From Streptomyces sp. WMMC940 (GTDB lineage: Bacteria > Actinomycetota > Actinomycetes > Streptomycetales > Streptomycetaceae): a DNA stretch of 64,000 nt. The notes beneath the pieces are model-generated. The model ran no database searches and had not been told where the DNA came from. It saw only the letters and a program-made list of their open reading frames with translations. Position 1 is the stretch's first letter. Each line of letters opens with the position of its first letter. Both the position numbers and the translations under genes were made by a program. Of the stretch, positions 22,174 through 43,555 are shown piece by piece. The stretch covers positions 1-64,000 of the forward strand of contig NZ_JAPZBC010000001.1 of the NCBI RefSeq assembly GCF_027460265.1, written 5' to 3'.

Positions 22174-22668
22174 TCACTGGAGGCGTCTGAGCGGGGCGAT
22201 GTCGGTGACGCGGTTGGTGATCGTGGGACGGGCGGCTTCCTGGGTGGCGAGCAGGGCGACGATCGTGACGGGCTGGTCGCAGTGCGGGCAGTTTCGGACG
22301 GCTGTCGGTGCCAGTGGGTCGATGGGGCCGGGGGTTGCCGGCTGCGGGGCGGGGAGGGCTCGGGGGTGTTCGCCGAGGCGGCGTGCCCGCTCTTCGTCCC
22401 GGGTGCGGTTGCGTTGTCTTTCCGACTCGCGACGGCATTCGGGCGAGCAGTAGATCTGACGGAGTCGGGGGTTGGCGGTGAACATGCCCTCGCAGACTGG
22501 GCAGGTGTGTGCGGCCAGGCTGGCGGGAGTGCGTCGGTGGGCGGCGCTCTTGCAGCGGGGAGAGCAGTAGATCTGTCTGGGGCTCGGCATGAACTCGCCG
22601 TGGCAGACTGGGCAGTTGGTGGACCTGGGGGTGAGCTGTTCGTCGTTGTGGGTGGGGTCAGGAGACAC
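22174..22668 (-). CDS. Zinc-finger accessory protein of IS21-type element
   Basis: This is 164 residues, starting at GTG 22668, 11 nt inside the end of istB. It has repeated CxxC knuckles: CPVCHGEF ... YCSPRCKSAAHRR at about residues 19-45, CPVCEGMF ... YCSPECRRESERQ at about 55-85, and CPHCDQPV near 135. These look like tandem treble-clef or zinc-ribbon units for DNA or RNA contact. Proteins of this type often follow istB in Streptomyces IS21-like elements. The role in transposition is unknown. Confidence 0.65.
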   Translation of the reverse strand: MSPDPTHNDEQLTPRSTNCPVCHGEFMPSPRQIYCSPRCKSAAHRRTPASLAAHTCPVCEGMFTANPRLRQIYCSPECRRESERQRNRTRDEERARRLGEHPRALPAPQPATPGPIDPLAPTAVRNCPHCDQPVTIVALLATQEAARPTITNRVTDIAPLRRLQ

Positions 22669-23467
22669 GTGCGTTGACTCCCTTGCGCATGGCGTCGGCC
22701 TGGTTCTGGTGGCCGCGGAGCCGGTAGGAGGGTCCGTCGATGCCGGCGACGGCAGCCCGGTGCAGGAGCCGGTCGAGCATGGCGGCGGCGACGGTGGCGT
22801 CGCCGAAGGCTCCGGCCCAGTCGGCGATCCCGACGTTGGTCGTCAGGATCGTGCTGGACTTGAGATACCTCTGGTTGATCACCTGGAACAAGGCCGAGGC
22901 GCCGTCCTCGGGTAGCGGCAGATACCCGAGCTCGTCGATGATCAAAAGCTTCGGACCTGCGAAGAAGCGCATGCAAGTCTTCCAGCGGCCTTCGAGGGCG
23001 GCCTTGTGGCACTTGGCGGCGAGTTCCGCGGCGGTGGTGAAGTAGACACGGTGACCGGCGTCGACGGCTGCTCGTCCGAGAGCGACGGACAGCATGGTCT
23101 TGCCCACTCCGGGAGGGCCGACGAACAGCACGTTGGAGGCGTCGTCGAGGAAGCGCAAGGTGGCCAGGTCGCGGATCAGCTTCTCGTCGACGCCGGGCTG
23201 GGCGGCGAAGTCGAAGTCGGCCAGGGTCCAGGGCTCGGGCAGGCAGGCGAACCGTTCCCGGGCGGCGAGCTTGCGGGCTTCGGTGGCCTCGACCTCGATC
23301 TCCAGGAGCCGTTCCAGGGCTGCGGTCAGTGACATTCGCTCGGTGCGGGCTTGGTCCAGGACCCGGTTCAACGCCTCAGCTGCGTCGTTGAGTTTGAGGT
23401 AGGACAGGTGGCCTCTGAGCTGCTGGAAGCGGCGGGCTTCGCTCACCTGCATCGGTGACGTACTCAC
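22658..23467 (-). CDS. IstB helper ATPase of IS21-family element
   Basis: This is 269 residues, with its GTG start overlapping the istA stop (GTGA). AAA+ features are present: Walker A VLFVGPPGVGKTML at about residues 113-126, Walker B KLLIIDELGYLPL at about 172-184, and sensor STILTTNVGI. It is DnaC-like. IstB loads and activates the IstA transposase at the target. The gene is full length for the family (about 250-270). Confidence 0.9.
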   Translation of the reverse strand: MSTSPMQVSEARRFQQLRGHLSYLKLNDAAEALNRVLDQARTERMSLTAALERLLEIEVEATEARKLAARERFACLPEPWTLADFDFAAQPGVDEKLIRDLATLRFLDDASNVLFVGPPGVGKTMLSVALGRAAVDAGHRVYFTTAAELAAKCHKAALEGRWKTCMRFFAGPKLLIIDELGYLPLPEDGASALFQVINQRYLKSSTILTTNVGIADWAGAFGDATVAAAMLDRLLHRAAVAGIDGPSYRLRGHQNQADAMRKGVNARVS

Positions 23468-24825
23468 TCCGGACTCTCCTCCTGCTTCGATGAGGGGACA
23501 CTCCGCAGCCGGTCGGCCACGGCGGCATAGTGGGTCAGGTCGATCACGACCCGTTCGGCTGAACTGCCGGCGGCCGGTCCTTCGCGCAGACGCTCGGCTT
23601 CGGCCAGGGCTGCGGCTGACGGCGGTTTGCGGACCTTGGTCTTGCAGGGAGCCCGGTCGGAGAAGGAGGACAGCACCGCCCTCTCCAGGGCGATGACATG
23701 TCCGTCGTCCCGAATGGTCTGCCCGGCGCCTCGCGGGGCCCGGCGGTGGCAGGCGACGACGGCCCGGCCTGCGGTGACGATCCGCAGGTCGTCCTCGCCG
23801 AGCCGGTGCAGGACTTTGACCGTGACGCCGGGCAGGCCGGGCGGAACGGAGTAGAAGTTACCGTCGAAGCCGACCAGACTCTGCGGGCTGACGGTCCGCT
23901 CGACCTCCAGCTCGGCCGGGAACGGCCGCACCGGGATGTCGAGCAACGGTTCGGCCGCGGCGAGCTCGCCGACGGTGGTGACCGCTCCGTCGATCCGCCG
24001 GCGCCGGTCATCCATCCGGAGCGAGAGCTTGTCGACACCGGACTGGGCCTGCACGACCGTGAGCCCGTCGGGAACCGTGCGCCACCATCGTTGCGCGGCC
24101 GAGTGATTGGCCTTCTCCACCACTCCCTTGCGGTTGCCGCGACGGGGCGGGCAAATGTCCACCCCAGCCCCGTAGTACTTGGCGACGGCGGCGAACGCCG
24201 CAGTGACCTGGCCGCTGGAGGGATAGCAGACGGTGGCCATCCGGTCGAAGCGCCACCGACGGGCGGTTCCGCCCAGCTTGCGCACAACATCGTCCAGGGC
24301 CTGGACCAGATGGGGGAAGTCCTCCGACTCCGCCAGCACCGCCCTCCACCGGCCCGAATGCGCGAGAGCTCCGACGAGTAGATGCGCGTGCGCACCCACC
24401 CCCCATCCGTCAGGCGGATCGGGCAGCTCCAGCCAGTCGAACTGGATCTCCTCGCCGGGTGGATGCGCGATCACCGCGACGTTGCGACCGGTGGAGGCAT
24501 GACAGGGCTCGCAGTGCGGCCGGACGCGATAGCGGCGAAGGGCGCGGGTGAACGTCGAGTACGCACCCTCGTAGCCGAGCCCCACCACCTCGTCGAACAG
24601 GGTGGACGCCCACAGGTGCGGGTCGTCGGCGAGGCGCTGGCGGCAGTACGGAAGGAACGGCACGAACGCGTCAGGCGCCTGACGCCGCGGGCCGGCGGTC
24701 CGCTCACCGTTCAGATAGGCCCGGATCGTCTTGCGGTCCCGGCCCAGATGCCGGGCGATCGCTGAGATCGTCCAACCCTGCCGACGCAGTGCATGAGCAT
24801 CCACGTCTTCCTCCCGCGTAAGCAT
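23464..24825 (-). CDS. IstA transposase of IS21 family
   Basis: This is 453 residues. An N-terminal helix-turn-helix (ALRRQGWTISAIARHLGRDR) is followed by an RNase H-like DDE domain starting with GEEIQFDWLELPDPP, where the first Asp is visible. The catalytic glutamate lies in the region RGNRKGVVEKANHSAAQRWW. A C-terminal beta-barrel-like region follows (YSVPPGLPGVTVKVLHRLGE). It is translationally coupled to istB. It looks intact, so the element could be active if its ends are. Confidence 0.9.
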   Translation of the reverse strand: MLTREEDVDAHALRRQGWTISAIARHLGRDRKTIRAYLNGERTAGPRRQAPDAFVPFLPYCRQRLADDPHLWASTLFDEVVGLGYEGAYSTFTRALRRYRVRPHCEPCHASTGRNVAVIAHPPGEEIQFDWLELPDPPDGWGVGAHAHLLVGALAHSGRWRAVLAESEDFPHLVQALDDVVRKLGGTARRWRFDRMATVCYPSSGQVTAAFAAVAKYYGAGVDICPPRRGNRKGVVEKANHSAAQRWWRTVPDGLTVVQAQSGVDKLSLRMDDRRRRIDGAVTTVGELAAAEPLLDIPVRPFPAELEVERTVSPQSLVGFDGNFYSVPPGLPGVTVKVLHRLGEDDLRIVTAGRAVVACHRRAPRGAGQTIRDDGHVIALERAVLSSFSDRAPCKTKVRKPPSAAALAEAERLREGPAAGSSAERVVIDLTHYAAVADRLRSVPSSKQEESPE

Positions 24826-25004: not shown

Positions 25005-25141
25005 GTCATCGAGGTCGACGGTGTACAGCACTACGGCCCGCCCCAACCCGCCCGACGCACAGGGACAGGTCAGATACACCGCCGCGCCTCGGCTGTACTC
25101 GGAGATGGTCGCCGAAGACCGGCGGCTGCGCCTGGCCGGGG
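25005..25141 (+). pseudogene. Fragment of DUF559-type endonuclease-like gene
   Basis: In one frame the text reads RIVIEVDGVQHYG, the catalytic strand of DUF559/Vsr-like nucleases. A frame change near 25045 leads to APRLYSEMVAEDRRLRLAG, the next conserved helix of the same family. It stops at 25141 where IS256-type sequence begins. The N-terminus is lost at the IS21 right end and the C-terminus is not found on the other side of the IS256 stack. Confidence 0.6.
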
Positions 25142-26566
25142 AGTGTCATGAATCAGGTGGGCACTTGCTCAGAAGGGACCCCTGATGGGCACGGAGAACG
25201 GTCACCTGATCGAGGACGCTGACGGCGTGTCGGTTGCGGTGTTTGACAGGGACGTTGACGGTTCCGGTGTGACACCGAAGACGACGGCGGCGAGCCGGGA
25301 AGCGGCGGCCGCGCACGGGCTGAGCCCGAGGCTGATGGACGAGCTGGCCGAGCTCGCCGCGGACAAGGTCCGCGACGGCGGGCTCAGGCTGATGGGCGAG
25401 GGCGGCCTGCTGGTCGAGCTCACCCGGCACCTGATGCAGGCCGCCGTCGAGGCGGAGATGGACCTGCACCTGGCCGAGGAGGCCGGCCGCACCGGCGGCC
25501 GGGGCTCCCGGTCGGGGGGCAACGCCCGCAACGGTTACCGGAACCGGAAGGTGATGACGGAGGTCGGCAGCGTGACGGTGCAGGTCCCCCGGGACCGGCT
25601 TGGCACCTTCACCTCCGGCCTGCTGCCGAAGTACGCACGCCGCACCGGCGGCCTGGAGGAGATGGTCCTCTCGCTGACCGCGAAGGGGCTCACCTCCGGG
25701 GAGATCGTCGCGCATCTCGCCGAGACGTACGGCATGGAGACCTCCAAGGAGACGGTCTCCACCATCACCGACAAGGCCCTGGACGCCATGGCCGACTGGC
25801 GCACGCGCCCGCTCGATCCGGTCTACCCGGTCCTGTTCGTGGACTGCGTGAACGTGAAGATCAGAGACGGTGCGGTGGCGAACCGCCCCATCTACGTGGT
25901 GCTCGCGGTCACCTGCGACGGCCACCGCGAGATTCTCGGACTGTGGGCCGGGGACGGCGGCGAGGGCGCCAAATACTGGCAGAACGTCCTCGCCGAGCTG
26001 CAGAACCGCGGCGTCCGCGACGTGCTCATGCTCGTCTGTGACGGCCTGAAGGGCCTGCCCGAGGCGGTCAGCACCGTCTTCCCCGCCACGGTGGTCCAGC
26101 TCTGCATCGTTCACCTCATCCGCACCACGCTGAAGTACATCTCGCGCGCCGACTGGGACAAGGCCGCCCGCGACCTGCGACCCATCTACACCGCTGCCAA
26201 CGAGGACGAGGCCCTCGCCCGGCTGGCCGAGTTCAGCGAGAAGTGGGAGGCCAAATACCCGGCCGCGGTCCGTGCCTGGGAACGGTCCTGGAGCGAGGTG
26301 GTGCCCTTCCTGGGCTTCCCGCCGCCGATCCGGAAGATCATCTCGACCACGAATGCGATCGAGAGCCTGAACGCGCGCTACCGGCGCTCGGTCAACGCCT
26401 GCGGGCATTTCCCGAACGAGACCGCTGCCCTCAAGCGTCTCTACCTCACCACGCTCGCCCTCGACCCGACCGGGAAAGGCCGCAAGCGGTGGACCAGCCG
26501 CTGGTTGAGTCGGCCCGGAGCGCGGTGCTGGTGTTGCCACCGGTCCGTTTCTCCGGGCCGCTCGCC

Positions 26567-26600
26567 GAACCCGGCGTGCGCCTCTCGACGCACCGGGCTC
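26567..26600 (-). ncRNA. Group II intron ribozyme domain V
   Basis: On the minus strand a 34-nt hairpin opens with GAGCCCGGTGCGTCGAGAGG and closes with GCACGCCGGGTTC. This is the GAGCC...GGTTC form, with the central GAGA-type tetraloop, of bacterial group II domain V, the catalytic heart. It sits 63 nt before the intron 3' end and 17 nt past the RT stop, as expected. Confidence 0.9.
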
Positions 26601-27283
26601 TCCACGGCCTCTGCCGTCAGGCGTGGTTCGCCTTCGCCCAGGGGGTCGGGATCGTGCCTCTGTAGCGGTAACGGGTGACCGTCACCGACGAGGGGTCGAA
26701 CAACTCGATCCCGCCCATGCCGACCGGCCGCCATCTCCCGGAGGGGGTGACGAAGTGGCGGCGGAGCTGCTTCCAGCGCAGACGGTGCAGTTTTCTCAGC
26801 CACCGGAAGATTCGCCACTGGACGAAGTGCCTCAGGTTGCTGAGGGTGTGCTTGCACACCGCGTAGCGGAAGTAGTTCGTCCATCCTCGCAGGATCTGAT
26901 TGATCCTGGTCAGGATGGTCCTGGGGTCGGCCTGCGACACCCTGTGGGTCATGGCACGTATCTTCGCCTTCACTGCCTTGAGGGGCTTCTCGGCGATGAA
27001 GGTGTAGACGTACCACTGGTCCGTGCCTCGCTTGCGGCGCCACTGGATGTGGAACCCCAGGAAGTCGAATCCGTCGCGCATGTGCACCACCCGCGTCTTG
27101 GCCGGCGACAAGCGCAGACCGAGCGGGGCGAGCATGCGGGCGACGTCATCGCGCAGATCCTCGACGTCGGATTTCTGGCCGTGCACGAGCACGACGAAGT
27201 CGTCCGCGTAACGGACGATCCGCCAGGTCGGCTGGCCCTTCTTCCGACATGCGTGTCAATCCCCCGGTTTCGTGGAGACCTTC

Positions 27284-28204
27284 CTATGCAGCCAGCTCCC
27301 CGGTGAAGCCGGCCCAGTAGTCGTGTTCGTAGTCGATCGGGCTCTTCCAGCCGCACACGCTGTGTAGTCGTCGAGCGTTGTAGAAGTCGGTGATCCAGGT
27401 CGCGATCCGGATCCGGGCCTCGGTGCGGGTGGCGAAGGTCCGGCGATGGACGTACTCGACCTTCAGCACGCTGTTGAACGCCTCGCTGACGGCGTTGTCG
27501 AAACATGATCCGACCCGGCCCATGGACTGGGTGACGCCCAGCTTCCGGCAGGCCCGGCGGAACTTCCGCGAGCCGTACTCGCTTCCGCGATCGCTGTGGA
27601 AGATCACACCGCGGACGTCCCCGCCGCGGGTGGCGGCGGCCATGTGGAGGGCAGCGACGACCAGGTCGGCATCGTGGCGGGCGCCCATCGCATAGCCGAG
27701 CAGGCGGCGGGAGAACAGGTCTATGACCGTGGCCAGATAGAGCTTGCCCTCGCCGGCGTCGATCTCGGTCATGTCTCCGCACCAGACCAGGTCGGGCGCC
27801 TCGGCGGTGAAGTCGCGGCGCACGAAGTCCGGGGCGGCCAGCCGTTTCCCCGGCCGGGTCAGCCCCCGCCGTCTTCGTACCTTCCGCGCGACCAGGCCGA
27901 ACTCCGACATGATCTTCGCGACGGTGTTCACGGAGACCCGCCAGCCCTGCCTCACCAGCCTGATCCAGATCTTCGGCGAGCCGTAGGTGCCGCCGGAGTC
28001 GTCGAACTCCTCCTTCACCGCTTCGATCAGACGCTGTCTGCGCAGCTCACGCCGGGTGGGCCGACGGGTGCGGTGCTTGTAGAACCATGCCTCGCTCACG
28101 CCCAGAGCGCGGCAGGAGACACGGTGCGAAATGCCGTGCTCGGTCCTGAAGTCGCTGATCACCCCGACGACGGACGCCGGGTCCGCCACGGCTACTTCAC
28201 CCAC
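27284..28204 (-). CDS. IS3-family OrfB transposase
   Basis: This is 306 residues overlapping the end of orfA by 13 nt. An HTH_21-like start (VSCRALGVSEAWFYKHRTR) precedes the DDE integrase core: LVWCGDMTEIDAGEGKLYL (first Asp), GVIFHSDRGSEYGSRKFR (second Asp) and SCFDNAVSEAFNSVLKVE (Glu). It is usually made as an OrfAB fusion by -1 frameshifting at the orfA/orfB overlap. It appears intact. Confidence 0.93.
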   Translation of the reverse strand: MGEVAVADPASVVGVISDFRTEHGISHRVSCRALGVSEAWFYKHRTRRPTRRELRRQRLIEAVKEEFDDSGGTYGSPKIWIRLVRQGWRVSVNTVAKIMSEFGLVARKVRRRRGLTRPGKRLAAPDFVRRDFTAEAPDLVWCGDMTEIDAGEGKLYLATVIDLFSRRLLGYAMGARHDADLVVAALHMAAATRGGDVRGVIFHSDRGSEYGSRKFRRACRKLGVTQSMGRVGSCFDNAVSEAFNSVLKVEYVHRRTFATRTEARIRIATWITDFYNARRLHSVCGWKSPIDYEHDYWAGFTGELAA

Positions 28205-28488
28205 AGGACCATGCAGCGTTTGAGGACATCACGCTCCATGACCAGTTCCTTCTTCTCCCGCTTGAGCTGGGCGACCTCACGCCGCAGACGCTCCAGCTCG
28301 TCACTCCCGCCGGCCGGTGCGATCCCTGCCCGACGGGCGCGGGAGACCCAACTCGCCAGAGTGGTCTCGTTGATCCCCAGGTCTTCGGCGACCTCGGCGA
28401 TCGTCTTGCCGGTCTCCGTCACGATCCGTACGGCCCCCTCACGGAACTCCGGATCGAACTTCCGTCGCTTCTCCGCCATGACTCCCAA
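28192..28488 (-). CDS. IS3-family OrfA (helix-turn-helix) protein
   Basis: This is 98 residues. The helix-turn-helix KTIAEVAEDLGINETTLASW is followed by a leucine-zipper-like coiled coil (DELERLRREVAQLKREKKEL). It recognises the IS ends and multimerises with OrfB. Its last 13 nt overlap orfB. Confidence 0.9.
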   Translation of the reverse strand: MGVMAEKRRKFDPEFREGAVRIVTETGKTIAEVAEDLGINETTLASWVSRARRAGIAPAGGSDELERLRREVAQLKREKKELVMERDVLKRCMVLWVK

Positions 28489-29845
28489 CTTCCCCTGCAG
28501 TCACGGTCTTCACGCTACGAGGGGAGGGACATGCGTGACGGCGGTAGGTGGTGCCCATGCTCCCGTCCGGCCGCCACGGCGCCATCACCTGCTCGTCAAG
28601 CACGGTCAGGGCGATGTTGGCCAGCAGGGGCGAGAGGATTCCGCCCTGTGGGGTGCCGGTGTCGGACTCCTTCAGCCCGGACTGCTCGGTGAGCACCCCG
28701 GCCTTCCGGAAGGCTTTCACCAGCGCGAGCACGCGCTTGTCCTTCACCCGGAGCCGCACCCGGTCCATCAGGGCCGTGTGATCGATCCGGTCGAAGCACG
28801 CCTCGATGTCCGCGTCCAGCACCCATTGATAGCCCCGGGAGCCGAACATGTGGATCTCGGCGATCGCGTCGTGCGGCCGCCGCCCGGGCCGGAAGCCGTA
28901 GGAGACCGGCAAGAAGTCGGCCTCGAAGATCGGTTCCAGCACGAGCTTCAGCGCCGCCTGGACCACCCGGTCGGCGATCGTGGGAATGCCCAACTTGCGG
29001 ACCTTCCCCGAGCCGCCCGGCTTGGGAATCGCGCGCTCACGCACCGGCAAAGGACGGAACGTCCCCGCCTTCAGCGCGATGCGCAGATCGTCCAGGAACC
29101 CGGGCGCCCCGATGCGCTCCTCGACAGCGGCGGCCGTCAGGCCGTCCACGCCGGGAGTGTTCGCACCGCGGTTGCCCGCGACCCGGTCGAACGCCACGAT
29201 CAGCGTCGCCGGGTCGTGCACGAAGTTGAACAGGTCGTCGAACCGGCGGCCAGGATCGGCCACCGCCCAACGGTGAAGCTTGGCCTGCATCTCCGATACC
29301 CGCTGACGCGGCCCGATGGGCAGCCCAGTCGGGGCACCGGCGTTCACCAGTGCGTCTTTCGGTCTTGCAGCATCCTCATCTCCTCGATACCGCTGCCGCC
29401 CTTCCCCATGCACCGGGCTCTCCCCGGTTCGGAGTACTACGGCGGCTCCGCCCCGCCCCTGGCCGCTCGGCCGACGACGGACCCAGCCCGTTCCACCGTG
29501 CTGGACACACGGCAGCGGGCAGACCAGGGACGGTTCCCGTGTCCACTGTGATTCGCTCGTCGAAGGAGGAGCCCGACTCTGCCCCAACGGCCTCGCTGCG
29601 AGTACGCCGCAGACCTTCCCCGCAGCCTCCCGGTCACCGGCTTCACGACTTCCGGGAGTTCCCCGTCCGCAACGGACGAGGACGCGCCGTTCCCGGCCCA
29701 TATCCACCAGGTTCGAGCCAGTACGAGTGTTGAGGGGCGTTATGGCACCGGTTCCTCTCGTACTCCTCTCCGACCTGCTCACCGGACCTACGGCATCTGG
29801 CAGTTCTGCCGCACCCCGGCTTTGTCAGGACTGCTCCCACCGATG

Positions 29846-31254
29846 GCGTCCCTTGACGTGGTGTAGCCGATCACGGTTAGGGAGTGCGCCGGGGGCGTGC
29901 GCTGACAGCGATTCCGCTCCCTGCCCAGCAGGCGGGCCACCTGCAACTCTCCTTGGTGAACGGCCAGTTCAACCCGGGAGGTGCACGGTGGCCCTGTCCC
30001 AGTCTGACCTACTACGCCTGCTGGAGTCACTACGTTCGGCGGACGGGCTTGAACTCGTCCGCGGCGTGGCCGAGCGGATGCTCCAGGAGCTGATCGAGGC
30101 CGAGGCCACGGCCCGGATCGGCGCGGAGTGGAATGAGCGCACGGAGACGCGCACCGCGCTTCGCAACGGCCACCGCGACAAGACGGTCAGCACGCAGGCC
30201 GGCGACCTGGACCTTGCGATCCCCAAGCTCCGGTCGGGGAGCTTCTTCCCCGCGCTGCTGGAGCGACGCCGCCGCATCGACCAGGCCCTCTACGCGGTCA
30301 TCATGGAGGCATACGTCCACGGCGTCTCCACGCGGTCGGTCGACGACCTGGTCAAGGCCCTCGGCGCGGACACCGGGATATCCAAGAGCGAGGTCTCACG
30401 GATCTGCCAGGACCTGGACGGCCAGCTGACCGCGTTCCGTGCCCGGACCCTGGACCACGTCCGCTTCCCGTACATCTACCTGGACGCCACCTACTGCAAG
30501 GCGAGGGTCGATCACCAGATCGTGTCGAGGGCAGTGGTGATCGCCACCGGGATCACCGAGGACGGCGGCCGCGAGGTGCTGGGCGTGATGGTAGGCGACA
30601 GCGAGACCGAGATGTTCTGGACCGAGTTCCTGCGTCACCTGCGCGAACGCGGTCTGACCGGGGTCCGGCTCGTGATCGGAGACCACCACTTGGGGCTGGT
30701 CAAGGCCATCCGCAAGGTCATGCTCGGAGCCGCCTACCAGCGCTGTCGCGTTCACTTCCTGCGCAACGTGTTCAGCGTGATCAAGAAGGAAGCGGCGGAG
30801 ATGGTCGCCGCGACGATCCGCACGATCTTCGCCCAGCCCACAGCCGACGCGGTCCGCACCCAGCTCGACACCGTCGCCGACATGCTCGGCAAGCAGTTCC
30901 CGAAGGTCAGGGAGATGCTGCTGGACGCGAAGGACGATCTGACCGCCTTCGCCGCCTTCCCGGAGCGACATGGGAAGAAGATCCAGTCCACCAATCCACT
31001 GGAGCGGATCAACCGCGAGGTCAAGCGCCGCACCGACGTCGTCCAGGTCTTCCCCAACGATGACGCGCTCCTACGGCTGGTCACCGCCGTGCTCTTCGAA
31101 CTGCACGACGAATGGATCGCCTTCCCCCGCCGCTACCTGCCCGAAGGAAGCATGGACCAGCTCTACCCCGCCGAGCGCTCCGAAAGCGCCCCCGCGCTAC
31201 CCGACACCACCAACACGACCGCCGGATGATCGGCTACACCACGAGAAGGGACAC
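29846..31254 (+). mobile_element. IS256-family element #2, inside the intron 5' region
   Basis: Terminal repeats are GTCCCTTGACGTGGTGTAGC (from about 29848) and, inverted, GTCCCTTCTCGTGGTGTAGC (ending about 31253). Both continue into CGATCA. No flanking target duplication could be found. The intron's first ~125 nt (31255-31378) and the rest (from 29845 down) lie on either side. Confidence 0.85.
29988..31229 (+). CDS. IS256-family transposase #2
   Basis: This is 413 residues from GTG 29988 with GGGAGG at 29976-29981. Family landmarks include LLRLLESLRSADGLELVR at the start, RIDQALYAVIMEAYVHGVS, FPYIYLDATYCKARVDHQI (first Asp), VRLVIGDHHLGLVKAI (second Asp), and STNPLERINREVKRRTDVV (Glu). The stop codon TGA (31227-31229) lies within the right terminal inverted repeat. 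It appears intact and is closely related to transposase #3 at 42208-43434. Confidence 0.92.
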   Translation: MALSQSDLLRLLESLRSADGLELVRGVAERMLQELIEAEATARIGAEWNERTETRTALRNGHRDKTVSTQAGDLDLAIPKLRSGSFFPALLERRRRIDQALYAVIMEAYVHGVSTRSVDDLVKALGADTGISKSEVSRICQDLDGQLTAFRARTLDHVRFPYIYLDATYCKARVDHQIVSRAVVIATGITEDGGREVLGVMVGDSETEMFWTEFLRHLRERGLTGVRLVIGDHHLGLVKAIRKVMLGAAYQRCRVHFLRNVFSVIKKEAAEMVAATIRTIFAQPTADAVRTQLDTVADMLGKQFPKVREMLLDAKDDLTAFAAFPERHGKKIQSTNPLERINREVKRRTDVVQVFPNDDALLRLVTAVLFELHDEWIAFPRRYLPEGSMDQLYPAERSESAPALPDTTNTTAG

Positions 31255-31537
31255 GACCCTCCCACCCGCCCCGGCGTCTCCCGGGACAGGCTGTCCTCAG
31301 CTCCTACCGGACCACTGCGACGGCCCGGCGACGGTGGTCTCTCACCCCCATACGAATCAACAGCGCCTCACGGCGCACGAAAGAAGCCATGAACGCGTTC
31401 GACATCGCCTTCGGCGGCCGCCTCTCGGCCGAACGAGCGTGAGCCAACCAGACCAACGAGAAACCTCTACGCCAACGGAGTGGTGAACACCGCTTCGCGT
31501 GCCTCGAATGCCGGTGAACGCACTCTGAGAACGGGGA

Positions 31538-31657
31538 CTGCTTGAGTCACTACGCTCGGCACATGGTCTTGAACTCGTCCGCGAGATCGCTGAGCGGCTG
31601 CTGCAGGAACTGATCGAGGCCGAGGCCACCGCCCGGATCGGTGCGGAGTGGGGCGAG
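31538..31657 (+). pseudogene. Remnant of an IS256-family transposase N-terminus
   Basis: About 40 codons read LLESLRSAHGLELVREIAER and LLQELIEAEATARIGAEWGE, nearly the same as residues 10-50 of transposase #2. No start, no continuation and no terminal repeat remain. It marks an older IS256 copy to the right of the stack. Confidence 0.85.
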
Positions 31658-36009: not shown

Positions 36010-37335
36010 TCACGTCGTTGCCAGTGCTTTCGGCGCCTCTATGGCGGTCGGCTGGGTGGAGATCGGCCGGACCAGCCCGGCCTTGCCGGCGAGTGTGTAG
36101 AGCACGATCGAGACGACGAGCGAGTTGAGGGCCCCGATCCCGATCGGGGCGTACCAGCCGATCAGAGCGGAAGCCAGCCAGACGGCCAGAGTGGCAGGCA
36201 CCCAGGTGGGCTCAGTGGCGGGAAGAGACGTCCCGGCGGCTTCGAGCTCACCGCGGAAGCGCTTGACGATGAAGTACTCGGCGACCATGATCCCCGCGAT
36301 CGGCGGGAAGGCGACCCCGAGCAGGATGAGGAACTCGATAAAGTGTCCGAGGATCCCCGCAGCCGCCAGCGCGCTGCCCACCAGTCCGACGCACGCGGTG
36401 ACGACTCTACGATTGAGTGCACGTCCGGTCATGGTCGAGACGAAATTGACGACTCCGAGGGATCCGGAGTACAGATTCCAGTCGTTTATCTTGAGCGTCC
36501 CGGCGATGAGGATCAGTGTGCCGACCCAGCCAGTGGTCGAAGTGATGATGTTGACGATGTCGCTTGTCTTCAGGGCGTGAGCGAGGAGGACACCTGCCAG
36601 CGCCACCATGTACTCCCCCAGTGTCACTCCCACTAGCGTCTGCTTGACGACGTCGCTGGGCTTGCGGTTGAAGCGGGTCATGTCCGGGGTTATCACCATG
36701 CCGACCATGAAGCCGCCGGCGACGAGGGTGGTCCCGGCAGCCAGACTCAGGACCTCGCCGGGTGGGCCCTCAGTGACGAGTGCGCCGATGTCATGCCGTG
36801 ACAGTTCGGAGACGATCGACCACCCAGCCAGCGCGAGGAAGGCGGGAACGGTCAGGTAGGCGGTCCAGGCCATCGAATGGAAGCCGAAGATCACCACTGC
36901 CGTGACCACGAGGCCGAAGAGGAGCGACAGCGCCCACACCGGCAGCCCCGGTATGAACTGGTGCAGCCCCTGAGCGGATACGGCACTCTGCACACCGAAC
37001 CAGCCAATCAGGCTCAGCGCGATGACCAAGCCGATGAGGCTCGAGCCATACCGGCCGAAGCCCGTCCATCGAGCGAGCACCGATGTGCTCAGCCCCTCCT
37101 TCTGCCCGATCAGGCCGGTGCAGATCGCCACCACCTCGAGAATCACCGAGCCCAGCGTGATGGCCAGCAGGGCATGCCAGAACGTCATGCCGAATCCGAG
37201 CGCCGCACCGAGCAGGAACTGCGACAGAGCGGAGATCTGACCGAACCGCTGGACCGCGACGGTCCACCAGGAGTAGCGGGCACTTTCAGGGACACGTTCG
37301 AGCACATAGTCGTCCCCGGCCTGTCTTTGTTCCAT
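36010..37335 (-). CDS. NCS1-type purine-cytosine/hydantoin permease
   Basis: This is 441 residues with about 12 hydrophobic helices, for example LGAALGFGMTFWHALLAITL, LIGLVIALSLIGWFGVQ and AALAGVLLAHAL-type segments. The family start reads ESARYSWWTVAVQRFGQIS, and VITPDMTRFNRKPSDVV resembles the substrate-region motif of CodB-like proteins. NCS1 members carry nucleobases, allantoin or hydantoins. It is the first gene of the leftward unit and overlaps the longest possible hydantoinase start by 4 nt. Import of the pathway substrate is the likely role. Confidence 0.88.
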   Translation of the reverse strand: MEQRQAGDDYVLERVPESARYSWWTVAVQRFGQISALSQFLLGAALGFGMTFWHALLAITLGSVILEVVAICTGLIGQKEGLSTSVLARWTGFGRYGSSLIGLVIALSLIGWFGVQSAVSAQGLHQFIPGLPVWALSLLFGLVVTAVVIFGFHSMAWTAYLTVPAFLALAGWSIVSELSRHDIGALVTEGPPGEVLSLAAGTTLVAGGFMVGMVITPDMTRFNRKPSDVVKQTLVGVTLGEYMVALAGVLLAHALKTSDIVNIITSTTGWVGTLILIAGTLKINDWNLYSGSLGVVNFVSTMTGRALNRRVVTACVGLVGSALAAAGILGHFIEFLILLGVAFPPIAGIMVAEYFIVKRFRGELEAAGTSLPATEPTWVPATLAVWLASALIGWYAPIGIGALNSLVVSIVLYTLAGKAGLVRPISTQPTAIEAPKALATT

Positions 37336-37481
37336 GGAACACCTCTGTTCAAATCAGGATGAACTGGACCACTGCGGTTGTCTCCGACGCTAGGTCTTGA
37401 ACGGGTGACTGTCAGTGGGCAGACTGTCCATCAATCCCAATTCAGGTGGGCAAAGTGCCCTCTCTGGTGAGGTGGCAAGCC
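37336..37481. promoter_or_regulatory. Divergent control region of the hydantoin-like locus
   Basis: The 146 bp between the divergent permease and DUF917 genes hold both promoters. A small palindrome GGGCAAAGTGCCC (about 37448-37460) and a nearby TGGGCAGACTGTCC (about 37415) share a GGCA-half-site look and are candidate operators, perhaps for the PucR-type regulator encoded downstream. This is pattern reading only. Confidence 0.4.
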
Positions 37482-38498
37482 ATGAGCTGGAGTCTTGACA
37501 CGGTCGATCTGCGGCCGCTGGCCATCGGTGCTGCGGTACTGGGCTCAGGCGGCGCCGGAGACCCCACCCTCTTCGAACTACTGGCCAGGGAAGTGCTCGC
37601 CACGCACGGGCCGGTCACCGTCTACGAACACGCCGACCTGCCGGACGAAGGCATACTGATCAGCACCGGCCTGGTCGGGTCCGTCACCGCATTCAGCGAG
37701 AAACCGAGCAACGGCTACGAGTGCACCCACGCGTTCACCCGCCTACGCGACGCACTCGCCCCGTCTCCTCCCGTGTACGTCTGCGGCTACGAAACTGCCG
37801 GCGTGAACGCCTTCCTCCCCCTGATCGTCGCCGCGCAGACGCAAACCCCCTTGGTCGACGTCGACTGCATGGGGCGAGGGCTGTCCTGGCTGGACCAGAC
37901 CACCTATGACGCGGTCGGCATCCCGATCGCGCCGTTCACCCTCACCGACTCCCTCGGTCACACCATCCTCGCCGAGGCCATCACGGGACACGAAGCCGAG
38001 CGGTACATCCGCACCCTCACGGTGACCATGGGTGGCTGGTCGGCATTCGCCGGCTACCCGGTCGACGCCACTGCAGCAGGAACCGCGGGCGTCCACGGGG
38101 CTCTCGCCCGCGCGATGCGGCTCGGCCGCTCCCTGGACGCCGAGCCGAGCCGCCACCTCGGATCCGGACGTGTCAGCGAGGTGACGTGGCAACCCGGAGT
38201 CGAAGCCGCGCACGGCAGCATCGTCGTATGGCTGGGGCCACCCGACGACCGCCCACTGCGCATCGAAACCCGCAACGAGTTCCTCATGGTCCTCGACCGC
38301 GGCCAGATCGTCGCCACAGCACCGGACATCATCTGCCTCCTCGATCAGCGCACCAGGACGCCGCTGCTCACGGAGACGGTCACCACCGGCTACCAGGTCG
38401 ACGTGCTCGTCTACCCCGCCCCCAGCCGATGGAACGAGCCGGCATTCTCCCCTCTCGCCTCACCCGCGGCATTCGGATACAGCTGGGCAGAGACGTGA
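37482..38498 (+). CDS. DUF917 (S-Me-THD family) protein, rightward copy
   Basis: This is 338 residues from ATG 37482. It has AIGAAVLGSGGAGDPTLFEL, DEGILISTGLVGSVTAFSEK, GYETAGVNAFLPLIVAA and VDVDCMGRGLSWLDQ. These are the same blocks, in the same order, as the leftward DUF917 protein, but clearly divergent, so the two are paralogues and not a recent duplication. The stop overlaps the start of the PucR gene (GTGA). Two DUF917 proteins on both arms of one divergent locus may act as a pair or on successive substrates. Confidence 0.85.
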   Translation: MSWSLDTVDLRPLAIGAAVLGSGGAGDPTLFELLAREVLATHGPVTVYEHADLPDEGILISTGLVGSVTAFSEKPSNGYECTHAFTRLRDALAPSPPVYVCGYETAGVNAFLPLIVAAQTQTPLVDVDCMGRGLSWLDQTTYDAVGIPIAPFTLTDSLGHTILAEAITGHEAERYIRTLTVTMGGWSAFAGYPVDATAAGTAGVHGALARAMRLGRSLDAEPSRHLGSGRVSEVTWQPGVEAAHGSIVVWLGPPDDRPLRIETRNEFLMVLDRGQIVATAPDIICLLDQRTRTPLLTETVTTGYQVDVLVYPAPSRWNEPAFSPLASPAAFGYSWAET

Positions 38499-40018
38499 AC
38501 GGCCACCCCACAGTCCATCAGCTCATGGCCAGCCCAGTGCTCGACGGAGCCTCCCTGATCGGCGGCGCAGGCGGCCTTGAACAAACCGTGGCCGACGTAC
38601 ATGTCTGTGCCCCGACCGAACCGGACCTGGCACAATTCAGTGCTCATGCGGCCCTGATCCTCGATACCCCAAGCGGGTACCAACTCGAGACCATACTGCC
38701 CCGGGCCCGCGCATCCCAGGCGAGCGTGCTGATCGTGCGAACCGGACCGGCAGCGGTCCTCAGCTCGACCAGGTGGCTGGCCGATCGACTGGCGCTGCCT
38801 CTCATCGCCATGCCCGAAGCCACGCCTCTAGGCCTCGCGCAACGCCTGCACGCCCTGGTACACGGCGCCGAAACACACCGCGGACTCACCTGCGCTCGGC
38901 TCGCCGCTCAACTCAGTCGACGCCCCGCCAGCCCAGCAAGCACCGTGCGCGCCCTGAACACACTTCTACCCGCCCACTGCGCAATCCTGAGCTCCGAGGG
39001 AACCCCCCTGGCCGGCGACCCTCCGACCCGACAGCTCGATGACACCCTGCGCACAGCAGTTCCCGCGACGATCCGAGACGAAGCCGGTGTGCTCATCGCA
39101 CTCCCGGCCGGCGCAACAGCCAGGCGCGGAGCACCACTCTGGCTGATCGCCGAAACCGCCGGGATGACCGACACCGAACTCCACACCATCAAAGCTGCCC
39201 TGGATATCGCCGCATGGGCCGTCACAGCCTGGTCGACAACCAACCAACTCGAAGCCGCACACAACGCCGCCTTCCAGGCCTCGGTGCTCACCGAGCTACT
39301 GACCGCTGGCGATCAGGTCACTCCCCAAACCGTCGAGCAGGCCCTGGAGGCAGGCTGGACCCTGGACGGCTGGCACATCGGCGTACGCATCCGCCCCACC
39401 GACACAACCGCTCGGCGGAGCCAAGCCACTACCACCCGTCTCCACCACGCACTGAAAGCCCACCAGCTCCCCGCTCCCCTGGTAGAACTCGGCGGCAGTT
39501 GGGCCGCGTGGCTAAGCGAACCGGACGAGCCCACCCCCAACCGATTCTCCGCCGTCATCGCCGCAGTCCGCCGCTCACTCACCTCCATGCCCGGCACCGC
39601 GCTGGTGGCAGGAATCGGCAGGGCACAACCAGGACCCACGGGACTGGCCAAGTCACTCACCGAAGCCTGGGAACTCGCCCAGATCGCCGGCTTCTCCCCC
39701 GGCCGGCACCGAATCGAGCACGCCGGCACGACCGACCCCCGGCGCCTCATCCTAGCCGTCGTGTCGGGCAACGAAACCGTACGCCGGAGCCACCTCCTAC
39801 TCGGCGCGCTTCTGGCACCTGCCAACAAGACGCTCCTGGACACCCTGGAGACGTATCTGACCCTGGAGTCCTCAGCCTCCGCCACCGCCAAGAGCCTCCA
39901 CGTCCACCGCAACACCGTACTCAAACGACTCGACCGGATCGAGAAACTACTCGACATGCGACTGGAAGACCCGGCCATCCGATTCGCCCTGCGCATCGCC
40001 TGCAGTGCCGCCCGCTGA
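38495..40018 (+). CDS. PucR/CdaR-family transcriptional regulator
   Basis: This is 507 residues from GTG 38495, overlapping the DUF917 stop. The N-terminal PucR domain (HPTVHQLMASPVLDGASLIG ... VADVHVCAPTEPDL) is followed by a GGDEF-like/CdaR middle and the C-terminal HTH_30: TLETYLTLESSASATAKSL and HVHRNTVLKRLDRIEKLLD. The much longer upstream frame is rejected because it overlaps the DUF917 gene. PucR-type regulators activate purine, allantoin or amide catabolism genes in response to substrate, so this is the probable local regulator of both arms. Confidence 0.88.
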   Translation: MNGHPTVHQLMASPVLDGASLIGGAGGLEQTVADVHVCAPTEPDLAQFSAHAALILDTPSGYQLETILPRARASQASVLIVRTGPAAVLSSTRWLADRLALPLIAMPEATPLGLAQRLHALVHGAETHRGLTCARLAAQLSRRPASPASTVRALNTLLPAHCAILSSEGTPLAGDPPTRQLDDTLRTAVPATIRDEAGVLIALPAGATARRGAPLWLIAETAGMTDTELHTIKAALDIAAWAVTAWSTTNQLEAAHNAAFQASVLTELLTAGDQVTPQTVEQALEAGWTLDGWHIGVRIRPTDTTARRSQATTTRLHHALKAHQLPAPLVELGGSWAAWLSEPDEPTPNRFSAVIAAVRRSLTSMPGTALVAGIGRAQPGPTGLAKSLTEAWELAQIAGFSPGRHRIEHAGTTDPRRLILAVVSGNETVRRSHLLLGALLAPANKTLLDTLETYLTLESSASATAKSLHVHRNTVLKRLDRIEKLLDMRLEDPAIRFALRIACSAAR

Positions 40019-40036
40019 GCTCGTTCATACGTGGTG

Positions 40037-40064
40037 GTGTCCCTCTTCGCGGTGCAGCCGATCA
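40037..40064. repeat. Solo IS256-type terminal repeat
   Basis: GTGTCCCTCTTCGCGGTGCA then GCCGATCA differs at only a few bases from the terminal repeat of IS256 #2 (GTGTCCCTTCTCGTGGTGTA then GCCGATCA). No transposase text is attached. It sits 19 bp past the PucR stop and is a scar of a lost element. Confidence 0.75.
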
Positions 40065-40354
40065 AACACTCGCAATACGCCGGGCATCGCCACATCGACG
40101 CAGCTTGAGGCCGCCCTTGACACTGACTGGTCGGTCAGCCGCCCGCGACGCGGGAGCCGCGCAGCACGAGGGGTGCCCGACGCCCGGCATGCCGCAGCGC
40201 CTCGAACAAGGTCACCTACACCACAACACGACACACAACCATCCATCGAGTCGCACAGGACCGACGAAGCGGGCAAGGGCGTACGCGTCCACCCGCAGCA
40301 CTTCAGGTACCCCCTACGGAGAGCCGGTGCCCACGTGATGAGGGAATAGTGGGC
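40065..40354. other. Intergenic, no gene recognised
   Basis: 290 bp between the IS scar and the small hypothetical gene. Composition and frames give no convincing gene on either strand. Confidence 0.45.
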
Positions 40355-40768
40355 ATGACAGATTTCATCCGGGACGGACGGCTCTTCAGAGTCACCGGCT
40401 TCAACCCCTCGCATCGTCAGCTCTTTCTGACCAGTGAGGCCCTACTCATGGACCGGACCACGACGAGGATCGAGGTCTACATCGGGCATGTGGAACTGAT
40501 GTTCCTCAAGCCCCTCTACCCGCACGGGCTCCACATCCGGCGGGCGACCGCCGCGGAATTCGCTGTGCTCCACGAACGGCACGGCATCCCGGCGCAGGAC
40601 GCCACCTACACCTGGATGCTGGAGCGGGACGGCGACAGCTTCGTCGTCGGAGGCCACCCGTCCTGGCGGGAGGCCGAGTACGAGCTAATGGCCGACCGGA
40701 CCTCGTTGTACGACGCGAGCAAGCCCTGGCCGCCGGAATTCCCGGTAGAATCGGGGCACGTCAGCTGA
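40355..40768 (+). CDS. Small hypothetical protein (137 aa)
   Basis: From ATG 40355 (a GTG 6 nt earlier is possible) the protein reads MTDFIRDGRLFRVTGFNPSH, then TTRIEVYIGHVELMFLKPLY and TYTWMLERDGDSFVVGGHPS, ending in DASKPWPPEFPVESG. It is a compact alpha/beta protein without signal or membrane segments. No family was recognised. It stands alone between the catabolic locus and an IS-rich region. Confidence 0.6.
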   Translation: MTDFIRDGRLFRVTGFNPSHRQLFLTSEALLMDRTTTRIEVYIGHVELMFLKPLYPHGLHIRRATAAEFAVLHERHGIPAQDATYTWMLERDGDSFVVGGHPSWREAEYELMADRTSLYDASKPWPPEFPVESGHVS

Positions 40769-41174
40769 GCACCCGTCGGCCGCAACCGCCGAGGGCAGTG
40801 CCGCGCTATGGCGCGCCGCCACCCCTGCCCGGGACCTTCCGACATCCGCGTGACTCATCCCGTACAGCGCCGCCGGCCCCCTCCCAGCACCTCGAGCCAG
40901 CGATCCTCCGACCTGGGAATGGCGGACGACAACCTCCCCGACATCGAAGGTCGAGGAGGCCGCCGTCGAGTGCGGAGAGGCGGACTGTCAGGTGCGCTCG
41001 CCGACGACCGGCAATTGTCGACGCCTTCGACTCCGAGACGGCCGCCGAGACCCGCGGCGAACAGTGAGCCCTTTCCAACTTGCGGCAACAGCGAGCCAGT
41101 TGGGGTGACAACGTGGTGAAGCCCCTGGTAGATGGGTTTTCGACCAAGAGAACCGTCTCCACCAGAGGCTTCGC
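40769..41174. other. Gene-free stretch
   Basis: About 400 bp of high-GC sequence in which all open frames look like noise. It probably includes the left end of the IS5-family element whose transposase follows. Confidence 0.4.
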
Positions 41175-41938
41175 ATGCTTGTCTACCCTTCGGGCGTCGA
41201 CGTGTCCAGCTCTGCCCTGCGCTTCCTGTCCGCCCGTCTGCGGCAGCACCGTCGCGCGATCGGCTCCCGCTGGAGGCGTCTGAACCCCGGCCGCCAGGCC
41301 TGCTCGCACTCGCCCACCTGCGGATGGGAAACACGTATGCCCAGCTCGCGGCCGGATTCGGTATCGGAACCACGACCGCCTACCGGTATGCCACCGAGGC
41401 TGTCGAACTCCTGGCAGGCCTCGCGCCCACCCTGGCCGACGCGATCCGGGTCGCGTCGACGAAGGCGTTCGTAATCCTCGACGGCACACTCCTGCCGACC
41501 GACCGCATCGCCGCGGACCGGCCCTTCTACTCCGGGAAACACAAGAAACACGGGATGAACCTGCAGGTCCTCACGGATCCCTTCGGCCGGCTGCTGTGGG
41601 CCTCGCCGGCACTGCCCGGCGCCGTCCACGATGTCCGCGCGGCCCGCGAGCACGGCATCGTCGACGCCCTTGCCGCAGCCGACATCAAGTGCTGGGCGGA
41701 CAAGGCATATCGGGGCGCCGGCGGGACCGTTCGAACCCCCTACTGGGGCCGCTGGGAAACCCCTTCCACCGGCCAGCAGGCCGTCAACCGGTCCCACGCG
41801 AAGATTCGCGCACTCGTCGAGCAGGCCATGGCCACCCTCAAATCCTGGCGGCTCCTCCGCAGGCTCCGGTGCTCGACCACCCGCGTCACCAGCCTCGTCC
41901 AGGCCGTCCTCGCCCTGCATCTGGCCAGCTCAGAGTGA
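41175..41938 (+). pseudogene. IS5-family transposase (DDE_Tnp_4), frameshifted
   Basis: The start reads MLVYPSGVDVSSSALRFLSA and SRWRRLNPGRQA in one frame. From about 41300 the sense continues in another: LLALAHLRMGNTYAQLAAGF, FVILDGTLLPTDRI (first Asp), NLQVLTDPFGRLLWASPALP, DIKCWADKAYRGAGG (second Asp), HAKIRALVEQAMATLKSW (Glu). A one-base loss in CCAGGCCTGC near 41298 explains it. Without the frameshift it would be a standard transposase of about 255 residues. Confidence 0.8.
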
Positions 41939-41991
41939 GGATGGAAAAGGCTCACTGCTTTGACTATCCATAAGCGCAGTGTGATTGGGCG

Positions 41992-42186: not shown

Positions 42187-42207
42187 CTCAACTGAGCGAT
42201 TCGAGGG

Positions 42208-43434
42208 TCATGTCCCCTGTGGTGGTGTAGCCGGACCGATCTGGTCGTTGTTGGGGTAGATCTTGTCCATACTGCCTTCGGGGAGGTAGCGGCGGGGGAA
42301 GGCGATCCACTCGTCGTGCATCTCGATGAGCACGGCGGTGGTGAGGCGTTCGAGGGCGTCGGGGTTGGGGAAGATCTGCACGACGTCGGTCCGGCGTTTG
42401 ATCTCGCGGTTGATCCGCTCCAGCGGATTGGTCGACTGGATCTTCTTCCAGTGCCGATCAGGGAAGTCCGCGAACGCGGTCAAGTCCTCCTTCGCTTCCA
42501 GGAGCATGGACCTGACCTTGGGGAACTGGCGGCCGAGCATGTCGGCGACGGTGTCGAGCTGGGCCCGGACGGCTGCGGCGTCGGGCTGGGCGAAGACCGT
42601 GCGGATGGTGGCCGCCACCATCTCCGCGGAATCCTTCGGGATCACCGCGAAGACGTTGCGCAGGAAATGAACGCGGCACCTTTGGTAGCCGGCGCCGAGC
42701 ATGACCTTGCGCACGGCCTTGACCAGACCGCTGTGGTGGTCGGCGATGACCAGGCGGACCCCGGACAGACCGCGCTCGCGCAGGGAGCGCAGGAACTCGC
42801 TCCAGAACGCCTCGGTCTCGCTGTCCCCGACCATCAGGCCCAGCACTTCGCGTCCGCCGTCCTCGGTGATGCCGGTGGCGATGACTACGGCCTGGGACAC
42901 GATCTGATGGTTCACGCGGGCCTTGCAGTACGTCGCGTCCAGGTAGATGTAGGGGAAACGGGTGTGATCCAGCGGCCGGGTGCGGAAGACGGTGAGTTCG
43001 GCGTCCAGCCCGGTGCAGAGCCGGGACACCTCGCTCTTGGAGATGCCGCTGTCAGCACCCAGTGCCCTGACCAGGTCGTCGACGCTGCGGGTGGACACTC
43101 CGTGGACGTATGCCTCGACGATGACGGCGTAGAGGGCCTGGTCGATGCGGCGACGGCGTTCCAGCAGGCTGGGGAAGAAGCTGCCGGTGCGGACCTTGGG
43201 GATGGCCAGGTCCAGGTCCCCGGCCTGCGTGGTCAGTACTTTGTCGCGGTGACCGTTGCGCCAGGTCGTACGGGTGTCGGCGTGCTCGCCGGGCTCCGCG
43301 CCGATGTGGGCGGTGGCCTCGGCCTCGATGAGTTCCTGCAGGATCCGCTGGGCCAGGACCCTGATCAACTCGATTCCGTCCGCCGTACGCAGTGACTCCA
43401 TCAGCCGAAGTAAGTCATGCTGGGACAAGGCCAT
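42208..43434 (-). CDS. IS256-family transposase #3
   Basis: This is 408 residues from ATG 43434. It is closely similar to transposase #2 throughout (LLRLMESLRTADGIELIR, FPYIYLDATYCKARVNHQI, VRLVIADHHSGLVKAV, STNPLERINREIKRRTDVV). Its last codons run through the terminal repeat and the TGA (42208-42210) lies just outside the repeat end, so the flanking DNA appears to supply the stop. It otherwise looks intact. Confidence 0.92.
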   Translation of the reverse strand: MALSQHDLLRLMESLRTADGIELIRVLAQRILQELIEAEATAHIGAEPGEHADTRTTWRNGHRDKVLTTQAGDLDLAIPKVRTGSFFPSLLERRRRIDQALYAVIVEAYVHGVSTRSVDDLVRALGADSGISKSEVSRLCTGLDAELTVFRTRPLDHTRFPYIYLDATYCKARVNHQIVSQAVVIATGITEDGGREVLGLMVGDSETEAFWSEFLRSLRERGLSGVRLVIADHHSGLVKAVRKVMLGAGYQRCRVHFLRNVFAVIPKDSAEMVAATIRTVFAQPDAAAVRAQLDTVADMLGRQFPKVRSMLLEAKEDLTAFADFPDRHWKKIQSTNPLERINREIKRRTDVVQIFPNPDALERLTTAVLIEMHDEWIAFPRRYLPEGSMDKIYPNNDQIGPATPPQGT

Positions 43435-43538
43435 CGTGTCACCTCTCTCAACGAGCTTCGCTACTCGGAGAGTTGCGCGATGGCCGCCTCATGACCAGGG
43501 GCTATGCGGAGATCGCTGCTACACCACTCGGCGGGACA
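42211..43538 (-). mobile_element. IS256-family element #3
   Basis: The ends TGTCCCCTGTGGTGGTGTAG (42211) and, inverted, TGTCCCGCCGAGTGGTGTAG (ending 43538) share TGTCCC...GTGGTGTAGC, as in IS256 #2. No exact target duplication was seen. The element adjoins IS256 #4 with only about 17 bp between. Confidence 0.8.
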
Positions 43539-43555
43539 CCATCGATTCGGGTCAC

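Follow-up and report, generated by a model that had tools for sequence, protein, structure and literature searches.

A group II intron inside an IS256-family transposase gene, itself interrupted by an IS3-family element and a second IS256, in Streptomyces sp. WMMC940

A nest of four mobile elements

We analyzed a stretch of 64,000 nucleotides from Streptomyces sp. WMMC940 (hereafter the window), which comprises bases 1–64,000 of a 7,630,919-bp contig (NZ_JAPZBC010000001.1) in a genome of 7,665,203 bp assembled in 3 contigs. Within it, the transposase gene of an insertion sequence (IS) of the IS256 family, here called IS256 #1, is interrupted by a group II intron, which was in turn hit by an IS3-family element and by a second IS256 (IS256 #2). 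We put the probability that this nest is real at about 0.93. Chance is an unlikely source of the arrangement, because an 8-bp target-site duplication (TSD) adjoins ends of IS256 #2 that were set by other copies, and because removing the intron and the IS3 restores the reading frames that they break. The initial annotation of the window, made without database searches, had rightly counted four elements; the 'four layers' it described are three levels, with IS3 and IS256 #2 lying side by side within the intron.

The 5' part of the IS256 #1 transposase gene (25185–26503, plus strand) runs for 439 codons and 2 nt before breaking off inside a Trp codon, split TG|G. The 3' part resumes at 31379–31442 on the same strand, reading KEAMNAFDIAFGGRLSAERA and then a stop codon (31440–31442). 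Together the two parts make 1319+64 = 1383 nt, that is, whole codons. Uninterrupted homologues of IS256 #1 were sought in ten named genomes, and the best of them, from Streptomyces sp. NBRC 110611 (L084), crosses the intron site with 0 bases gained or lost, at 86% identity to the left of the exon junction and 81% to the right. In L084 the left part ends at base 2261; the right part was matched from its base 11, at 2272, which places its start at 2262 by extrapolation, and the printed sequence likewise shows the two parts contiguous. The exon junction 26503/31379 proposed in the initial annotation is thus exact, both by frame arithmetic and by the continuity of L084. The transposase is of the IS256 type (NF033543, 375.8 bits against a cutoff of 150), and its 5' part matches Pfam Transposase_mut (E 1.3e-113) and NCBIfam IS256 (E 1.7e-112). 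IS256 #1 is present as a single copy, the next match in the genome being 65% identical over about 360 bases.

The intron occupies 26504–31378 on the minus strand, antisense to the transposase, and measures 4,875 bp with its two inserts. Its termini, read on the minus strand, are GTGCG at the 5' end and CGACTCAAC at the 3' end, the same kind of ends as in its relatives. Domains V and VI lie at the 3' end (26504–26602, minus strand) and match Rfam RF00029 (Intron_gpII) over model positions 1–77 of 77, scoring 45.9 bits where the gathering threshold is 40; the length, the 5' end and the terminal domains first described all held, with ends exact to the base. Without the two inserts, each taken out together with one copy of its TSD, the intron would measure 4875−1425−1282 = 2,168 nt, in agreement with the reconstructed length of about 2.2 kb first given. 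Relatives were collected by scanning genome contigs with the N-terminal piece of the intron reverse transcriptase (RT); at least 553 were found and the best 80 kept. Both ends were found in 57 of the 80, at lengths of 2,116–2,225 nt, so that none of these bears an insert of such size. The intron is also single copy, its next match in the genome being 75% identical.

The RT/maturase gene, on the minus strand as first described, is in two pieces. The N-terminal piece (28536–29374) carries RVT_1 and covers TIGR04416 positions 3–203 (scanned as 28535–29374), and the C-terminal piece (26617–27253) carries the YADD motif and GIIM (E 5.1e-18) and covers positions 222–352 (scanned as 26617–27192); singly, they score 243.1 and 98.0 bits, below the curated TIGR04416 cutoff of 300 bits. 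The frame of the C-terminal piece is open from 27252. Joining 27253 to 28532 minus one TGCG restores the RT as had been claimed, but not across its YADD motif, which starts about 15 residues past the IS3 junction and lies wholly within the C-terminal piece. The best solved relative of the RT is GsI-IIC (E 2.2e-53), with LtrA at E 2.1e-41. When compared by eye, one candidate start codon of the RT, the ATG in the AATGCCG of relatives, corresponds to AGA in the window; we do not conclude that the start codon was lost, since the window keeps a later ATG (MQAKLHRW), at which the RT of one relative (L146) is annotated to start.

IS3-family elements characteristically have TG..CA ends and a TSD of 3–4 bp. 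The element in the intron RT gene (27254–28531, minus strand, 1,278 bp) has terminal repeats that match at 21 of 30 positions and is flanked by the TSD TGCG (27250–27253 and 28532–28535). It encodes OrfA (28192–28488, minus strand, 98 residues; HTH_Tnp_1, E 2.9e-17; IS3 model, partial, E 1e-12) and an overlapping OrfB (27284–28204, minus strand, 306 residues; rve, E 5.4e-28; IS3, E 3.8e-88), both open, while the element as a whole interrupts the RT frame. The OrfA/OrfB pair with rve, the element ends and the 4-bp TSD place it in the IS3 family. The genome holds five full-length copies, four of which reach the same full score, the fifth scoring slightly less.

IS256 #2 (29842–31258, plus strand, 1,417 bp) has terminal repeats matching at 27 of 32 positions and the same ends as the other copies in the genome. 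It is flanked by the 8-bp TSD CTCCCACC (29834–29841 and 31259–31266), within the 8–9 bp usual for the IS256 family. It had been recognized as an IS256 from the start, within limits (29846–31254) that the genome copies and the TSD extend by 4 bp at each end. An impression that it lacked a TSD proved wrong, as the element reaches beyond the inner repeat and the duplication lies outside. Its transposase is uninterrupted (29988–31229, plus strand, 413 residues; Transposase_mut, E 3.5e-131; IS256, E 8.7e-104; NF033543, 347.1 bits, cutoff 150). Including that in the window, there are four full copies in the genome, three of them with a perfect 8-bp TSD; the fourth, beside a second intron, has none. 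The copies at 3.4 and 5.3 Mb both differ from that in the window by substitutions at the same three positions. IS256 #2 sits in the 5' part of the intron, before the RT gene, and hence there is no reading frame there to restore; all 14 aligned relatives are continuous at this point. Comparison with uninterrupted copies, which had been suggested as a check, was seamless at the outer junction (L084) and supplied the ends of both inner elements.

Sister introns at the same transposase codon

Two related introns were found at the position that the intron takes in IS256 #1. In Tamaricihabitans halophyticus (L004) the intron interrupts K-P-A-L-N-A-F, equivalent to K-E-A-M-N-A-F in the window and thus the same IS256 codon. 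Like that of the window it begins with GTGCG, its 3' end, CGACTCATC, is a feature shared with the window intron, and the two RTs are 84% identical over their N-terminal 253 residues; unlike it, the L004 intron measures 2,116 nt and so contains no IS. In Mycolicibacter arupensis (L048) the 3' junction of the intron falls at the corresponding base. Around this codon the window reads W|K-E-A-M-N-A-F, and six uninterrupted homologues read W|K-x-x-x-N/Q-A-F.

Phylogenetic analysis grouped these introns together. An RT tree of 79 rows from 81 candidates (L048 and L061 were excluded, their best matches being shorter than 225 residues, in L048 owing to a frame break) placed the window and L004 introns as sisters (100/95). 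A DNA tree of the intron 3' part, for which 50 of 82 rows were kept by match coverage and L004 was added by hand with a shorter stretch, joined the window, L004 and L048 in one clade (99.8/100), in which L004 and L048 were closest to each other. The hosts belong to Streptomycetaceae (window), Pseudonocardiaceae (L004) and, presumably, Mycobacteriaceae (L048).

In order to locate the sequences that guide the intron to its target, the first part of 64 introns (that of the window and 63 loci) was scanned for pairing with their own 5' exons. Two positions exceeded 4 exon shuffles per word length: exon-binding site 2 (EBS2), which pairs with exon bases −15 to −11, and EBS1, which pairs with the 6 or 7 exon bases nearest the intron. 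In the window this matching over the family places EBS1 (GAAGCC) at 29639–29644 and the EBS2 region at 29719–29729, both on the minus strand, with intron-binding site 1 (IBS1, TCTTTC), to which EBS1 is the guide, in the 5' exon at 31379–31384, minus strand. The presence of both EBS1 and EBS2 would argue against group IIC, yet GsI-IIC leads among the solved relatives of the RT. Across 62 distinct exons, with 2000 permutations for each of the two sites and with the EBS1 register free by one base, EBS1 paired with its own exon at a mean of 4.89 of 6 positions (permuted 3.38, standard deviation 0.12, maximum 3.84; full pairing in 20 of 62) and EBS2 at 4.13 of 5 (permuted 2.58, standard deviation 0.12, maximum 3.03; full in 24 of 62), figures that measure the strength of the pairing and are no independent test, as the positions were picked on the same data and relatedness was ignored. 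Across the family, EBS1 and EBS2 clearly fit their own exons. Another candidate for EBS1, GAAAGA near the RT start, was rejected, since relatives whose exons are unrelated largely share it and the scan placed EBS1 elsewhere.

EBS1 is identical (GAAGCC) in the window and L004 introns and pairs 6/6 with the IBS1 of L004, so the window EBS1 is a better match to the site in Tamaricihabitans than to that in the window. At the corresponding codon of six IS256 homologues without an interruption it pairs at 6 positions in L087, at 5 in L085, L086, L093 and L097, the last being the genome's own uninterrupted homologue, and at 4 in L084. The guide therefore suits this IS256 codon in general, and the copy in the window is not its best target.

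These observations lead us to propose, tentatively and at slightly less than even odds, a distinct intron lineage specialized, in antisense orientation, on one conserved codon of IS256 transposases, with IS256 serving as its vehicle across at least three actinobacterial groups and IS256 elements in turn destroying such introns, a mutual attack of two parasites; of the two group II introns found in the genome, each bears IS256 insertions. The nest itself we explain, with much greater confidence, as follows. A mobile intron, of a lineage that probably homes to one conserved codon in the C-terminal part of the transposases of the IS256 family (W|K-x-x-x-N/Q-A-F), invaded IS256 #1, near the left contig end, in antisense. 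Its ribonucleoprotein presumably recognized the site through EBS1/EBS2 pairing and entered by reverse splicing and reverse transcription. Afterwards, in either order, IS3 inserted into the RT gene (4-bp TSD) and the second IS256 into the 5' part of the ribozyme (8-bp TSD).

Several observations weigh against the nest and the homing that we propose. The window intron pairs with its own exon below the family mean, with EBS1 at 4/6 (one of the pairs G-U) and EBS2 at 2/5, and the EBS2 of L004 reaches only 3/5 with its own exon; such weak pairing could reflect ectopic insertion, sequence drift or another guiding determinant. The L048 intron is truncated on its 5' side, leaving the 3' junction as the only one known. 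Structural support for the window intron comes from domains V–VI only, the 5' part having been aligned with relatives. Comparison with L040, L084, L086 and L092 did not reveal the outer ends of IS256 #1 (L086 and L092, two copies in another genome, were compared for this purpose and gave none), no TSD was seen by eye, and the family assignment comes from the transposase alone. The limits 25141–31500 first given for the nest are accordingly not fixed, and a remnant of an IS256 #2-like transposase gene (31538–31651, 86% identity) lies just to the right. Finally, a pattern search of genus and class samples gave no second assembly with the exon–intron junction. Among 295 genomes of the genus, allowing up to 3 mismatches, six matched, including the window's own, and the other five all had 3 mismatches and were unlike the junction, as judged from the matched letters only; among 246 genomes of the class, allowing up to 1 mismatch, the window's own was the only match.

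The alternative that survives best accepts the nest and explains its site otherwise than by repeated lineage-specific homing, either by ectopic retrotransposition or by IS256 and intron having been inherited or transferred whole as a block. The poor pairing in the window is in keeping with this, as are the single known junction of L048 and an IS256 known only in part beside L004. The presence at a single codon of three introns from the same clade argues the other way, as does the shared GAAGCC with its 6/6 fit to the L004 exon, and the IS256 next to L048 has no more than about 66% identity with that of the window over 741 bases. We consider this alternative unlikely, yet a serious competitor to lineage-specific homing.

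Order of insertion

The order IS256 #1, then the intron, then the two inner ISs is supported by the sequence. That the outer elements are older than the inner ones is supported by their positions, the TSDs, the uninterrupted homologue, and copy number and identity, the inner elements being near-identical multicopy ISs and the outer ones single and divergent. To this extent the order could be read as first claimed; IS3 and IS256 #2 do not overlap, however, so their mutual order cannot be read.

Both inner elements are repeated elsewhere in the genome (5 copies of IS3 and 4 of IS256 #2), and the sequence at the contig end suggests a collapsed terminal repeat, so an assembly chimera of mis-joined repeats has to be considered. 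It is very improbable: both inner elements have perfect TSDs, which a mis-join is not expected to create, the reading frames resume past the intron and past the IS3 insert, and relatives are continuous at the IS256 #2 point and of uninterrupted length. Still less credible is that IS256 #1 received the intron with IS3 and IS256 #2 already inside it, a scenario that is compatible with the sequence order taken alone but conflicts with the interruption here of both the ribozyme and the RT, whose function retrohoming requires, and with near-identical copies of both inner elements elsewhere in the genome, which mark these as local and young.

With its transposase gene cut, the intron antisense, the RT frame broken and the ribozyme split, the pair of IS256 #1 and intron is very probably inert now, and the two inner ISs may still be mobile. 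Overall, the observation in the initial annotation was confirmed and its interpretation partly supported; the antisense orientation of the intron, a guide that fits the sister site better and the sister introns sharing the site are additions to it.

Comparison with known systems

Group II introns are described as preferring mobile elements (PMC3522654), and a well-studied case is RmInt1 of Sinorhizobium meliloti, classed IIB3/class D (PMC4238363), whose natural target lies in ISRm2011-2, of the IS630 family (PMC4238363, PMC4496777). RmInt1 is, like the window intron, a mobile group II intron within an IS transposase gene; in the window, by contrast, the host IS belongs to the IS256 family, and the intron, which runs antisense to the transposase gene, is itself disrupted by two more ISs. 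IStrons, chimeras of a group I intron and an IS (PMC4227781), also join intron and IS physically, whereas the intron in the window is of group II and merely inserted, with no sign of a common mobility unit. Among the titles and abstract openings covered by a literature search, no description of the present arrangement was found.

The arrangement consists of ordinary parts of known kind and introduces no new kind of element; all that is unusual about it is that sister introns, from other kinds of bacteria, occupy the corresponding place in an element of the same type. The nest is of interest as a clearly ordered record of mobile elements parasitizing one another, as a natural mismatch of guide and target, and for the concrete, testable homing site it offers, a codon of IS256 at which related introns of different bacteria are found.

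Both intron ends and usable flanks were available at 52 loci of relatives, and one fragment each, mostly coding-looking, was scanned for 40 of them; 22 of the 40 matched transposase or recombinase families, 6 other families and 12 none, a count that is not a rate for all relatives, as the 12 unscanned loci are less coding-like. The 22 include 2 phage integrases, and two (L031 and L075) matched only below the curated transposase-type cutoff.

Some relatives begin instead with TTGCG and form another subfamily (among them L009, L010, L011, L013, L018, L028, L039, L040, L041 and the plasmid loci L144–L148). Their 5' exons are often alike, with TCTGGC or TCTGTC about 17 bases upstream of the intron at 9 of 12 genome loci and all five plasmid loci; by eye these exons resemble IS ends, possibly reflecting a different target habit. 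On plasmids, the five RT-match records examined (H1, H2, H4, H5 and H12, five of the 12 listed out of 74) showed none with the exon of the window, and all five of their introns (L144–L148) have the TTGCG start.

Genomic setting

The nest lies close to the left end of the chromosomal contig, which suggests a location at a chromosome end. The final 5,298 bp of the contig (7,630,919–7,625,622) recur in inverted orientation, with 100% identity, at positions 36660–41957 of the window. This is probably a terminal inverted repeat of which the assembly lacks most of the right arm; if that repeat is real, the nest may be present at both chromosome ends. A Pfam scan of 30 window proteins, a subset of its open reading frames, brought up several transposases alongside ordinary genes. 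None was clearly a drug-resistance gene; a kinase-like protein reached 21.9 bits with PF07931, just below the 22-bit cutoff. An IS21-type pair lies at 22658–24825 and consists of an IstB-like ATPase and a transposase whose C-terminal domain is of the Mu type.

A single further intron of this kind was found in the genome, at about 7,536–7,539 kb; over the 3' part it is 75% identical to that of the window. This intron (L106, G000:C1:7535000-7541500) is likewise broken by IS256 elements. The first is 81% identical to IS256 #2 and, over 1,340 bp, identical to 42205–43544 of the window; it has the 8-bp TSD GCCGGGTG, provided that its ends match those of copy L124. On the truncated 5' side of L106 lies the near-identical IS256 #2 copy without a TSD. 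A preference of IS256 for group II introns is not claimed, given the few copies and the lack of a TSD in the copy beside this intron. The IS256 at 42205–43544 is adjoined in the window by 43547–44981, of which a 99.86% identical copy lies at 7,523,553–7,524,987.

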